A stretch of 5,888 nucleotides of DNA. It comes from JBBIVP01 sp037439705 [NCBI: bacterium] (lineage in GTDB: Bacteria; JBBIVP01). The position numbers were made by a program, and so were the translations under genes. The number at the start of each line of letters is the position of its first letter. Position 1 is the first letter of the stretch. Under the pieces are notes generated by a model. The model was given only the letters and a program-made list of their open reading frames with translations. It had not been told where the DNA came from and searched no databases. The stretch is taken from assembly GCA_037439705.1 (NCBI GenBank), contig JBBIVP010000133.1:1-5888 (forward strand), given 5' to 3'. Below, piece after piece: positions 1 through 5,888 of the stretch.

Positions 1-2792
1 CCTTCTGTTCCCGGGGGTCCGGAATAGCAAGACTGGTTTTCTCCGTTGTTGCAGGAACATCCTTTATCAACATTCGTATCACATTTGTTATCATATCCGT
101 CGCATATTTCCTGAGCACCTGGATTAAAGAAGAAATTATTGTCATCACAATCCCCGTTTTGACTGGCTGAATATGGCGTTTGAGAATGACAGAGGTATTT
201 CACATCGTTGGCTCCATAACCATCCTGGTCGTTATCAAGATAGAAAGGAAGGCTTCCATTAAGGTTTTCTCCTTCATCAACATATCCATTGCAGTCATTA
301 TCCCACCCATCACAAACTTCGTCTGAAGGAAGAACTTCACCATCACAAACTCCCCACCTTCCAGATGAACAGGTCTGAATCCCGGCAGTACAGATTCCAA
401 CTCCGAGGGTTCCCACTGGACCTGTATAGCAAATTCTTGTTTCACCTTCATTGCACTCCGGAACAACCCCGCAGAACGGATTTGATGAACCTGAATTCCC
501 TGCATCGTTGAATGCAAAAACCCTGTAACAATAACAGGTGAGCGGTTTAACTCTTGAATCGGTAAAGGCTTGAGCATCTTCTCCGGCAGTTCCTATCTCA
601 ACATAACCAAGATTGTAAACCGTCTCTATGGGAAGCTCTCCACCTCCTTCACTGCAGGGACCATCGGTTACAATTCTTCTTGTAATCTTATATCCTCTTT
701 CCCTTGAAACTTCTTTCCATGTAAGAGAGACAAGTGATGCACTCATATTTCCAGAAAGATTTGAAGGTGATGGTGGAGGAGGCGGACAGAATCTTGAAGG
801 TGTTGTGAAACAGAATTCAGTAGAAGACGAAGTATACTTAACTCCGCCCTCTGTCCTGTAAGCAATAACCCTGTAACAGTAAGATGTATCCCTTCTCGTG
901 GTTGAATCGTAATGGGAAACCGTATCAGGAGGAAGGTCCGCAAGAAGTTGATAATTTTCTCCTGCTTTTTTTCTTTCAATTAGAAATCCATCTTCGTTGT
1001 CGGAACGGTCAATCCAGGAAAGAGAAACAAGCTCACCACATTCAGCAGAGGCTGTAACTGCCTGGGGAGCTGTCGGATATTTCTCGTTTCCTCTGTAATA
1101 GTAATCCACCGTAATAATATATGGATTATCAGGCGAAGATGATGGACAACCCGATATTACACCACTCCCACTGAACCCCTCTTCCTCCTCCCCTGATTTC
1201 AGAACAAGATTTGCAAAATATGTGGCAGATGTATCAACTGCATAATAAATATGGAATCTTCCAGAATCATCCGTCCTTTGTGAAACACATAAATCAGTTC
1301 CATTTTTTACACATATTTCATTTCTCCTTTCAGGAGACATATTTTCATCAAAGATAACCACATTCACTCCGGGAACAGAGGAACCAGGGGACGGAGGACT
1401 TCCTGAACCATAGGATATGCTTTCTATTCCGCTATACTTAACAATTCCGTAGAGTTCACAGGGTGAAGAAGTAGATGAAGAAGTAGTAAGGTTTATATCT
1501 CCGATGTTTTCACAGGCGCAATCTGGGGGATAACAATTCAGGTTCATTTCGGTAAGCGGTGAATACCTTTGTGGTGAAATGAACTCTCCTGCATTCCATA
1601 CCTGACCGTAGTAGGAGATAGTTATTGTGCTCTTATGAACCTCTCCTGCTATGCCATCACCATCCTCGTCCTTACCCTCCGGCTCGGATTTGAACACTGA
1701 AAGAACAAACCAGCCATTTTCATCTGTGCGTGCCCGTGTGATAAAACGAGACCCTATCTGAAAACATGTGGTAAATCCCCATGGTGTATTAATGCATGAG
1801 ATTGTTCCTTCTTCTGGAATAGTATAATTTACACCATTTCCTTCCACATCTACGCCCGATTGCACAACCCCATCTATCAAAACCCTCCCCATCAGACATG
1901 TAACATAAGGATTTTTCCAGTCCACATTCCACCACGAAAGATGTGGTGCATAAAAGACACTGTAAATGTTCCCTGCATATTTCCCCTCTTTTATGTTTTG
2001 TAATTCTTCCCTTTTTACCTCTTTTCCTCCCTCATATTCAAGCCATCCCTCAACACTTTCAACCCATACCCCCTTCACCTCATCAAAATAAAACATTGGC
2101 ACCTCAACCCTTTCTGTTTCAGGATTCAGGTCATCAAGAGTTGAATATGTATCAACGGGAATGAGCATCTTCACCTTTATGTCTTTTCCGTCCTTTATCT
2201 CACTTCCATTCTCATCGTAAAGCTTTATCTCTCCGAATACGGTTGAAATGAGCATCTTCCCTTCGCTGTCAAAGAAATTTCCCGGAAACACATCGGATTC
2301 CCTCACAGGATTGAAAACTGCCATCTCCCCACCAACTGCATTTTCCGGAATGTTTTCAACAATTATCTTTTTTGATGGGACATAGCATTTTCCATTTTTG
2401 CAGGTGGCATTTTCTTTCGGATACAAAACTATACTGGTCTGAAAACTCCCTTTTGAAGGAAAGGTTTTAATAATGCTTCCATAACCATCCTTTTCAACAA
2501 TAAGAACCGCATTTCCCTTGAAATCCCGGGGGCTCCACATTGAAACCTCAAACTTACCAAGAGAATCAACTTTAATTTTTCTAATTTCATTATTTAAAAT
2601 TTTCCCATCTCCGTTGAAATCCATCTGCATTTTCACAATCGCCCCATCAGCAGGCTTTAAAGAAAATTCGCCACTTGTAATAAGCTCAGAAACGCTCCCT
2701 GAAACCTCTATTTTCACCTCTTGCCTTACCTCCCTTCCACACCCATAAAGAAAAAACACCCCTATTAAAGTTCCTATTACTGCTTTCTTCGT
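1..2792 (-). CDS. Large multidomain surface lipoprotein with fibronectin III and MopE-type metal-binding repeats (3' end missing)
   Basis: One uninterrupted minus-strand frame gives 930 codons and runs off the left edge. Numbering from the ACG at 2792, residues 1-18 are a lipoprotein signal peptide (basic start, hydrophobic core, lipobox L-Y-G-C with Cys18), so the mature protein should be lipid-anchored outside the inner membrane. Residues about 26-130 form a carboxypeptidase-regulatory-like beta domain carrying an EF-hand-type loop (58-69, D-x-N-G-D-G-x-I-x3-E). Residues about 150-290 resemble the CILP/FAM171-like module of bacterial lipoproteins and end in HLSWWNVDW. Two further beta domains (about 297-400 and 445-565) flank a Ser/Thr linker (436-443). 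Two fibronectin III domains follow (about 573-664 and 673-778). From 780 come Cys/Asp-rich MopE-type motifs, including CDGWDNDCNG (827), DNDQDGYG (853), GDCDDNN (880) and CDGYDNKCD (897), and a second repeat starts at 912. Function is inferred as a cell-surface, probably calcium- or metal-binding adhesion or structural protein; no enzymatic domain is visible. No in-frame ATG occurs before residue 55 (2630). Automated callers might choose GTG at 2759, which would destroy the signal peptide. Confidence 0.85.
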
Positions 2793-2972: not shown

Positions 2973-4070
2973 ATGAGGATGACGATTACCGCTATAAAGG
3001 CTGACATAGGAAGCATAGGGGGGCACATAAGACCGAGTGAAGAGGTATTGAAAACCGTAAGGGAACATGTAGCAAAAAGCAAGGACATAATAGATAGTTA
3101 TGTTGGTTTTACAGGAGATGACATTTGTATCCTTATGACGCATGAAGGTGGAACCTCCAATGAAAAAATTCATAGAATTGCCTGGGATGCTTTCAAGGCT
3201 GGAACAGAGGTAGCAAAAAGACAGGGACTTTATGGAGCGGGACAGGACCTTTTGAAAGATGCATTCTCTGGAAATATAAGGGGCGCAGGACCTGCTGTTG
3301 CAGAAATGGAAATAGAAGAAAGGGAAAACGAACCATTCCTTCTTTTCGCAGCGGATAAAACCGACCCTGGAGCCTATAATCTTCCCCTTTACCTTGCTTT
3401 TGCTGACCCGATGCACTGTGCAGGATTGATGCTATCTCCGAAGATGTCAAAGGGATTCAGATTTGTAATAATGGATGTAAACTACACACATGGAGACAGA
3501 ATTATAGAACTTAATGCTCCGGAAGAATTGTATGATATAGCAGCTCTTTTGAGGGACAATGAAAGGTTTGTTGTTGAATCCATTTGGAGCAAGGAAACCG
3601 GAGAAATAGCAGTTTCTGTAAGCACAACAAGGCTGAGAAATATAGCAGGGAAATATGTGGGAAAAGATGACCCTATAATGCTTGTTCGGGTTCAGGGAGT
3701 TTTTCCTGCTACAGGAGAGGTTTTATCGCCATTTGTAATATCTCATTATGTAGCGGGTTTTATGAGGGGAAGCCATACCGGTCCACTTATGCCAGTTAAA
3801 CTTCATTCAACCGTTTCCTATTTTGACGGACCACCTATAGTTTCCTGCGCTGCTTTTTGCGTTCACAATGGTAAACTTACAGAACCGGCAGATGCCTTTG
3901 ACCATCCTTTCTGGGATTACATAAGATTAGAGGCAGCAAAAAAGGCAATTGAGATAAGAAGACAGGGATTTTCAGGACCTGCAATGCTTCCATACGATGA
4001 ACTTGAGTATGGAGGTATTGTTGAGAAGATGAAGGTTCTGGAAAAGAAATTTTATATAAGGAAAAAATAA
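2973..4070 (+). CDS. fbp: Bifunctional fructose-1,6-bisphosphate aldolase/phosphatase (class V FBPase)
   Basis: This 365-residue protein matches the class V FBPase family in length and signature motifs. The family converts dihydroxyacetone phosphate plus glyceraldehyde 3-phosphate to fructose 1,6-bisphosphate and then to fructose 6-phosphate in one active site, giving one-way gluconeogenic flux in the cytoplasm. Visible motifs in order: KADIGSIGGH with Asp11 and His18 (metal/phosphate site); GDD at 48-50 (metal ligands); YGAGQDLLKDAFSGNIRGAGP at 87-107; ADKTDPGAYNLP at 127-138; and YVGKDDP at 228-234, where Lys231 corresponds to the Schiff-base lysine and Tyr228 to the catalytic tyrosine (about 232 and 229 in characterised archaeal enzymes). 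The C-terminal GFSGPAMLP (about 338-346) is also typical. The gene is complete, starts at an ATG behind an excellent Shine-Dalgarno site and ends with TAA. It is divergent from the lipoprotein and convergent with HU, so it is probably monocistronic. Essentially all key residues are present, so it should be active. The family is near-universal in archaea and found in some deep-branching bacteria. Confidence 0.96.
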   Translation: MRMTITAIKADIGSIGGHIRPSEEVLKTVREHVAKSKDIIDSYVGFTGDDICILMTHEGGTSNEKIHRIAWDAFKAGTEVAKRQGLYGAGQDLLKDAFSGNIRGAGPAVAEMEIEERENEPFLLFAADKTDPGAYNLPLYLAFADPMHCAGLMLSPKMSKGFRFVIMDVNYTHGDRIIELNAPEELYDIAALLRDNERFVVESIWSKETGEIAVSVSTTRLRNIAGKYVGKDDPIMLVRVQGVFPATGEVLSPFVISHYVAGFMRGSHTGPLMPVKLHSTVSYFDGPPIVSCAAFCVHNGKLTEPADAFDHPFWDYIRLEAAKKAIEIRRQGFSGPAMLPYDELEYGGIVEKMKVLEKKFYIRKK

Positions 4071-4514: not shown

Positions 4515-4680
4515 GCAAAATTTTCTATGGTCTCTGAAAAAGGAAGGGGATATTTTTGGGGATTGCCCTCCGCCCTAATAAAACGGACACAGAATTATTT
4601 ACAACTGCCCCCTATTCATTCCACCTTTATGAGTGAGATTATGGGATTATTATCGGAGGGAAAATTTTTTAAAAGGCAAC

Positions 4681-4708
4681 TTGATTTCTTTAGAACCTTC
4701 AATAGAAT
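4681..4708 (+). promoter_or_regulatory. pncB: Possible promoter directly before pncB
   Basis: TTGATT (4681-4686) and TAGAAT (4703-4708) are spaced by 16 bases, matching four and five of six consensus positions. Transcription would begin around 4715, only a few bases before the ATG at 4722, giving a nearly leaderless mRNA. The rest of 4515-4680 shows no recognisable gene, hairpin or regulator site. Confidence 0.35.
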
Positions 4709-4721
4709 GGGATTAAAAGGG

Positions 4722-5600
4722 ATGAGAGAATTTCTTTCTTCATTATCAACTGACCTTTATGAATTGACAATGGCACAAGTATATGTAAGGGAAGGATTGC
4801 TTCAAAAAGCGGTTTTTGAGGTTTATCTCAGAGAACTTCCGAAAAACAGAGGATATGTAGTTTATGCAGGACTCGGTCCGGTGATTGAATTCATAGAAAA
4901 TTTTGGTTTCAGTGAGGAAGAAATCTCATATCTTGAATCTCTTAAAATTTTTAAGCCTTCATTTCTTGATTATCTTTTGAAAATTAAATTTGAAGGAAAA
5001 ATTTATTCTTTAAAAGAAGGCACAATTGCAACTCACACAATCCCGCTTTTTGCAGTTGAAGCTCCTCTTCCTGTTGCCCAGATACTGGAAAGTTCTCTTC
5101 TCAACATTCTCACTTTTGAAACCCTTATAGCCACAAAGGCTTCAAGGATAAGAAGTGTCGCTCCTTCAAAACTTCTTGTAGATTTCGGATTGAGAAGGGT
5201 TCATGGACTTGAAGCAGGCTGGCATGTGGCAAGGGCTTCTTTTATAGGTGGATTTGACGGAACATCCAACCTTTTCGCTGGAAAGGAACTGTCAATTCCT
5301 GTGTATGGAACTATGGCTCATTCTTACATACTTGCATTTGGAGATGAAAAAGAGGCTTTTAAAAAGTATGCAGAAGAATACGAAAACATTGTGTTTCTTG
5401 TGGATACATTTGATGTGAAAAAAGGAATTGAAAACGCAATTGATGTCGCTCGGGAGATTAAGAAATATGGAAAATCCCTCAAAGGAATAAGGATTGACAG
5501 CGGTGAACTCCTCAGTGAAACGAAACTGGCAAGGAGAATTCTTGACAGAAGTGGATTTAAAGATGTAAAAATAATGGTTTCAGGGAGCCTGGATGAATAA
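4722..5600 (+). CDS. pncB: Nicotinate phosphoribosyltransferase, interrupted by a premature TAA
   Basis: The family joins nicotinate with phosphoribosyl pyrophosphate to make nicotinate mononucleotide in NAD salvage (Preiss-Handler pathway, cytoplasm). From the ATG at 4722 the motifs are: STDLYELTMAQVY (near the N-terminus, as usual); the AVEAPLPVAQILESSLLN segment (about 112-129); DFGLRRVHG from residue 154; GTMAHS with His200 at the position of the phosphorylated active-site histidine; RIDSGEL from residue 257; and VSGSLDE from residue 286. The frame then hits TAA (5598-5600) where relatives have Tyr (SGDLDEY), and the rest of the C-terminal domain follows in the same frame. The frame is open upstream to an ATG at 4527, but those 65 residues lack family similarity and the conserved start motif lies just after 4722, so 4722 is preferred; ATG 4707 is an alternative. 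The 292-residue product would lack roughly the last quarter, so activity is doubtful unless the stop is a sequence error or is read through. Confidence 0.9.
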   Translation: MREFLSSLSTDLYELTMAQVYVREGLLQKAVFEVYLRELPKNRGYVVYAGLGPVIEFIENFGFSEEEISYLESLKIFKPSFLDYLLKIKFEGKIYSLKEGTIATHTIPLFAVEAPLPVAQILESSLLNILTFETLIATKASRIRSVAPSKLLVDFGLRRVHGLEAGWHVARASFIGGFDGTSNLFAGKELSIPVYGTMAHSYILAFGDEKEAFKKYAEEYENIVFLVDTFDVKKGIENAIDVAREIKKYGKSLKGIRIDSGELLSETKLARRILDRSGFKDVKIMVSGSLDE

Positions 5601-5888
5601 AGCATTCATAATCTTCTGAAAAGAGGAGCGCCTGTTGACGCTTTTGGGATTGGAACAATACTTGGAAAATCGGCAGACATCCCTTATCTTGATACAGCTT
5701 ATAAACTCGTAGAATTTATGGGAAAGGGTGTTCTGAAAACAAGCAAAAAGAAGGAGACCCTACCCTATCTGAAAACCCTGAGAAGATTTAGAGATAAAGG
5801 ATAAGTTGATTATCTAATTGGAAAAAGGGGGGAAACACTTTCAGGAGAGGAAATGTTAAAAGAAGTTTATAATTCCGAAAGGGGCAAA
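5601..5888 (+). pseudogene. pncB: Continuation of the pncB frame after the stop, with a second in-frame TAA
   Basis: Immediately after the TAA at 5598-5600 the same frame encodes SIHNLLKRGAPVDAFGIGT, the standard nicotinate phosphoribosyltransferase segment after SGDLDEY. It is followed by LGKSADIPYLDTAYKLVE and a Lys-rich stretch ending in LRRFRDKG. A second TAA (5802-5804) interrupts it. The frame then stays open to the window edge (VDYLIGKRGETL, then a Glu-rich tail), like the C-terminal end of the family. With both stops bridged, the protein would be at least 389 codons, near full family length. Homology is in frame across both stops with no indel, so the interruptions are single codons rather than frameshifts. 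The 3' end is outside the window. Confidence 0.8.

Follow-up and report, generated by a model that had tools for sequence, protein, structure and literature searches.

Two in-frame TAA codons in a nicotinate phosphoribosyltransferase gene close to the end of a bacterial sequence: a probable recent nonsense allele with base errors as a serious rival

A pncB-like frame at the end of a bacterial DNA sequence of 5,888 nucleotides (the window, i.e., the whole stretch that was analysed) contains two in-frame TAA codons, and the question raised by this locus is whether the gene is broken, wrongly sequenced or decoded in some other way. The enzyme encoded by pncB, nicotinate phosphoribosyltransferase (NAPRT), converts nicotinate to nicotinate mononucleotide in NAD salvage. 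The original prediction named a young pseudogene, a strain-level polymorphism and base errors as the options, and the tests described here agree with that list. The favored reading, with confidence somewhat above even, is a genuine nonsense allele of recent origin or a young pseudogene; base errors, in a short sequence with neither stop more than 291 bases from the window end, were retained as a serious rival. The finding as such is ordinary. Young pseudogenes and nonsense alleles occur in bacterial genomes; pncB resembles them in having nonsense codons within a recognisable frame and differs from them in having neither a frameshift nor a significant loss of constraint. The four genes of the window and the segments of the pncB-like frame are listed in Table 1.

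Table 1. Positions of the genes in the window and of the segments of the pncB-like frame.
Feature	Position	Strand	Remarks
Lipoprotein-like gene	2759 to 3, open at window edge	minus	long frame, 919 sense codons
fbp, fructose-1,6-bisphosphate aldolase/phosphatase	2973-4070	plus	365 sense codons
hup	4454-4185	minus	89 sense codons
pncB-like frame (NAPRT, TIGR01513 type)	4722..5888	plus	two TAA inside, cut by window end
N-terminal part, 292 codons ahead of first stop	4722..5597	plus	NF006696 and PDB 2f7f matches
First in-frame TAA, directly 3' of the S-G-S-L-D-E codons	5598..5600	plus	
Inter-stop stretch of 67 codons, NAPRT in the original frame and containing FGIGT	5601..5801	plus	NF006696 and relatives' profile
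Second in-frame TAA	5802..5804	plus	
28 codons in frame up to window end	5805..5888	plus	recognisable only within the whole frame

Counted from ATG 4722, the two stops are codons 293 and 361, and both are in frame as originally predicted. The part before the first stop was matched from position 4713 by NF006696, the NCBIfam NAPRT model (E 2.6e-110), and by PDB 2f7f (E 2.1e-69), the best-scoring solved chain for NAPRT of the TIGR01513/PRK09243 type. Against TIGR01513, which has a curated cut-off of 297.4 bits, this part alone scored 368.5 bits and the whole frame, with each stop written as X, scored 436.6 bits (residues 10-365 of P0001). The conserved motifs of the TIGR01513 type were present in the window frame, which differs from that type in its two in-frame TAA codons and is about 40-50% identical to its relatives. 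The prediction that family sequence continues after both stops was borne out by an in-frame match of NF006696 to the stretch between the stops (E 4.1e-18) and by in-frame alignment of the last 28 residues with relatives; taken alone, these 28 residues gave no family match. With a profile made from 20 relatives, sequence 3' of the first stop was detected in the original frame at E 1e-15 and in the other two forward frames at 0.74 and 1.2. This confinement of the family signal to one forward frame, that of ATG 4722, speaks for a nonsense allele. No frameshift was found in the pncB frame, which continues past the first stop in agreement with the predicted lack of an indel. Codon preference in frame was positive in each of 11 pieces of 99 bases from 4722 to 5810, though only weakly (0.01) at 5019; another forward frame was slightly ahead (0.23 vs 0.20) where the piece spans the first stop. 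The pncB frame is a recognisable gene with premature stops, which is one mark of a pseudogene; an uninterrupted frame of about 450 codons, as in TIGR01513 proteins, was not found in the window, which ends before the end of the family.

The residue at the first TAA had been described as normally Tyr, within the motif SGDLDEY. Loosely taken this was correct, since Tyr was the residue in 6 of the 20 relatives kept of 25, and strictly taken it was not, as the same column held Phe in five relatives, Asn in four, His in two and Thr, Lys or Glu in one each; the residues preceding the stop, moreover, are SGSLDE. Ahead of LDE, the 20 relatives of the first alignment had SGN, SGD, SND, SNE, SNQ or TND, the third residue of the S-G-x-L-D-E motif being N, D, E or Q in relatives as opposed to S in the window frame. 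In the first alignment, the first TAA column was Phe or Tyr in all nine of L012-L020, a set picked as one group and not strictly the nearest relatives of the window protein (L002 matched several of them in closeness, and L035-L038 equalled or surpassed them over the first 292 residues). Around the second TAA the sequences align poorly, and its column assignment differs between alignments; in the first alignment this column was Phe or Tyr in 7 of the same 9 sequences. Phe or Tyr occupied 35 of 388 columns of that alignment in at least half of L012-L020 and 32 of 388 in at least three quarters, and the chance of both TAA falling at such columns was 0.008 or 0.007. The reading that both stops occupy aromatic columns was dropped because, with five added relatives, the second column became E, K, I, L or Q.

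These columns bear on the proposal that TAA specifies an amino acid, whether genome-wide or in pncB by way of a suppressor tRNA or read-through. Under this proposal, the frame and most conserved residues would be expected to persist past the first stop, as they do, and the first stop would stand at a column that is Tyr or Phe in 11 of 20 relatives. The coincidence at the second stop, which had also spoken for it, was the one lost on adding relatives, and of the single-step routes to TAA in pncB about one fifth start from Tyr codons anyway. TAA is read as Tyr in NCBI tables 14 and 33, which are mitochondrial codes; the Tyr found at the first TAA column in some relatives of pncB recalls these codes, but fbp and hup end normally in TAA. 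Indeed, the family models end where these TAA codons stand (fbp matches model positions 1-360 of 361 of FBPase_3 and hup positions 1-90 of 90 of Bac_DNA_binding), TAA is used in these two genes solely as the last codon, and no internal TAA occurs among the 919 sense codons of the lipoprotein-like frame, the 365 of fbp and the 89 of hup, as against 60 Tyr codons in the first two genes. To the extent that three genes can show, these data contradict a general use of TAA as a sense codon, and both the earlier judgement that a general code change is unlikely and the proposed count of TAA in other genes came out accordingly. No tRNA gene was found in the window, which says little about the whole genome. 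Sense reading of TAA in any form was considered exceedingly improbable, and a natural ochre suppressor or gene-specific read-through, by which some TAA would specify a residue (perhaps aromatic) while most genes would still end in TAA, slightly more improbable again.

Constraint was assessed at near-invariant columns among 21 sequences of less than 80% identity (the window protein and 20 relatives); relatives more than 80% identical to a kept one were removed, which reduced 25 relatives to 20 in this count and 20 to 15 in an earlier one, and the archaeal match L011 was omitted from both. The window protein departed at 4 of 55 such columns before the first stop and at 2 of 17 after it, compared with 27 of 1095 and 12 of 308 for the pooled relatives (Fisher p = 0.056 and 0.16, respectively). 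Because departures were so few, most conserved positions are kept on either side of the first stop. Over the whole frame the window departed at 6 of 72 near-invariant columns, within the range of 0 to 8 noted for relatives (8 in L039, 7 in L017, 5 in L008, 4 in L021 and 0 to 2 in the remainder), and relatives whose mean identity was as low as that of the window were themselves widely spread, those just named being joined by L009 with 2 and L001 with 1. No significant excess of changes at near-invariant columns was detected with 20 relatives, but given the spread among these relatives the window protein may have a small one. The earlier count with 15 relatives had given 7 of 65 before and 5 of 21 after the first stop, where relatives ranged from 0 to 3; this apparent relaxation disappeared with more relatives and was therefore not used as evidence of decay. 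FBP, tried as a control for constraint, was uninformative (14 of 141 columns for the window, 12 of 136 for L032, 18 of 142 for L033 and 16 of 139 for L034), only five relatives being available and two of these distant.

Internal stops in the NAPRT family are rare in sampled genomes. In the phylum of G003, 56 rows from 55 of 299 sampled genomes exceeded the TIGR01513 cut-off, all of them free of internal stops; at least several rows below the cut-off, among the matches listed, did carry stops. Matches were found in 38 of 145 sampled genomes in the phylum of G002, with an internal TGA in 1 of 45 rows, and in 83 of 97 genomes in the class of G829, with no internal stop in 86 rows. Both of the latter searches were performed with the first 292 residues only, and many rows were of short type or partial. 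No close relative of the window NAPRT was found, identity being about 50% at most: 11 loci of up to 48% identity in a scan of contigs, a best match of 50% for the full query and 51% for part of it in the phylum of G002, and 49% in the class of G829. No match to the window was found in the plasmid collection at megablast level and no relative of fbp or pncB in viral contigs, and a literature search found, among the papers covered, none that joined nicotinate phosphoribosyltransferase with pseudogene and premature stop.

The proposal that the two TAA are assembly base errors, arising from a low-coverage or mixed-strain consensus near the sequence end and leaving the cellular gene intact, was given a substantial probability, though one below even. 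The two stops fall within the final 5% of the window, where the gene is also cut, the rest of the frame is conserved with no significant sign of decay, and the lipoprotein-like frame has another odd base, an ACG in place of the expected start codon. The rarity of stops in sampled genomes tells in favor of base errors as well as of a nonsense allele. Base errors would nevertheless have spared fbp, hup and the 919 codons of the lipoprotein-like frame, none of which has an internal stop, and the probability that two random stop-creating errors spread over four genes would both fall in pncB is about 0.05; errors would therefore need concentrating in pncB. Furthermore, as only about 5% of random substitutions in pncB make a stop, two stops imply about 40 errors on average, whereas 3' of the first stop the protein departs at just 2 of the 17 near-invariant columns. 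Neutral decay encounters the same arithmetic, two nonsense changes being expected on average with about 40 substitutions, of which about 29 would change an amino acid, and the lack of a significant excess at near-invariant columns counts against a nonsense allele too, although a load of this size would be compatible with the data without being required by them.

A split or truncated protein that still functions, either as the 292-residue product or as two chains, would be in keeping with the well conserved N-terminal part. However, the nearest in-frame ATG, GTG or TTG downstream of the first stop lies 40 codons away, at 5718, and is not preceded by an AGGAGG-like site within 20 bases; the second stop breaks the remaining part as well, and all 20 kept relatives encode the missing part in one open frame with the rest. 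A functional product of this kind is very unlikely. According to the favored reading, that of a nonsense allele, point changes would have created two TAA codons in an otherwise normal-looking NAPRT gene, leaving the frame and most conserved residues untouched. By the standard code, translation would halt after 292 residues, and the product would be without roughly the final third of the enzyme, and with it the G(I/V)GT stretch, which is present in all 20 relatives first aligned; lacking this third, it would very probably be inactive. Since there is no frameshift and conservation is retained, the loss, if real, was probably recent, as had been argued from conservation in the original prediction, and the gene would be a young pseudogene or a strain-level allele.

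Should the stops prove real, the population has lost or is losing nicotinate salvage through pncB and would need NAD by another route, which would be a small metabolic note on the source lineage. If they are errors, the case illustrates that a stop codon found close to the end of a short sequence should be supported by reads before the gene is declared dead.

Several minor features of the window were also noted. The probable start of pncB, ATG 4722, differs from those of fbp and hup in that no well-spaced ribosome-binding site precedes it (region 4640-4722), the sequence GGAGGG at 4655-4660 being far 5' of this codon. On the minus strand, the region ahead of the lipoprotein-like frame (2849-2759) contains a 12/12 match to a sigma-70 promoter (TTGACA, 17, TATAAT) with TG preceding TATAAT, followed by AGGAGG located 5 bases 5' of an in-frame ACG (2792-2790) and then by the signal-like sequence KKAVIGTLIGVFFLYGC. 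A search upstream of GTG 2759 in this frame revealed no in-frame ATG, GTG or TTG, and the ACG may serve as a rare start codon, derive from a mutated one or be a further base error in the window sequence. Close to the window edge, the same frame (3-2759, minus strand) encodes terminal repeats of the form CDG.DN.C...VD.G, which are reminiscent, we presume, of metal-binding repeats of surface proteins.

FBP relatives were found in 0 of 4, 0 of 4 and 0 of 52 genomes (the last by family), with best identities of 42% among 384 genomes and 71% among 398. HU from the four genomes with the best FBP was just 40-46% identical to window HU, and these genomes gave no long-type NAPRT match (that of G492 was below the TIGR01513 cut-off). 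In two of the 384 genomes, which were sampled from the phylum of G002, the FBP relative (L022 and L023, 42% identical) was part of open frames 1014 and 1031 codons long, suggestive of a fusion.
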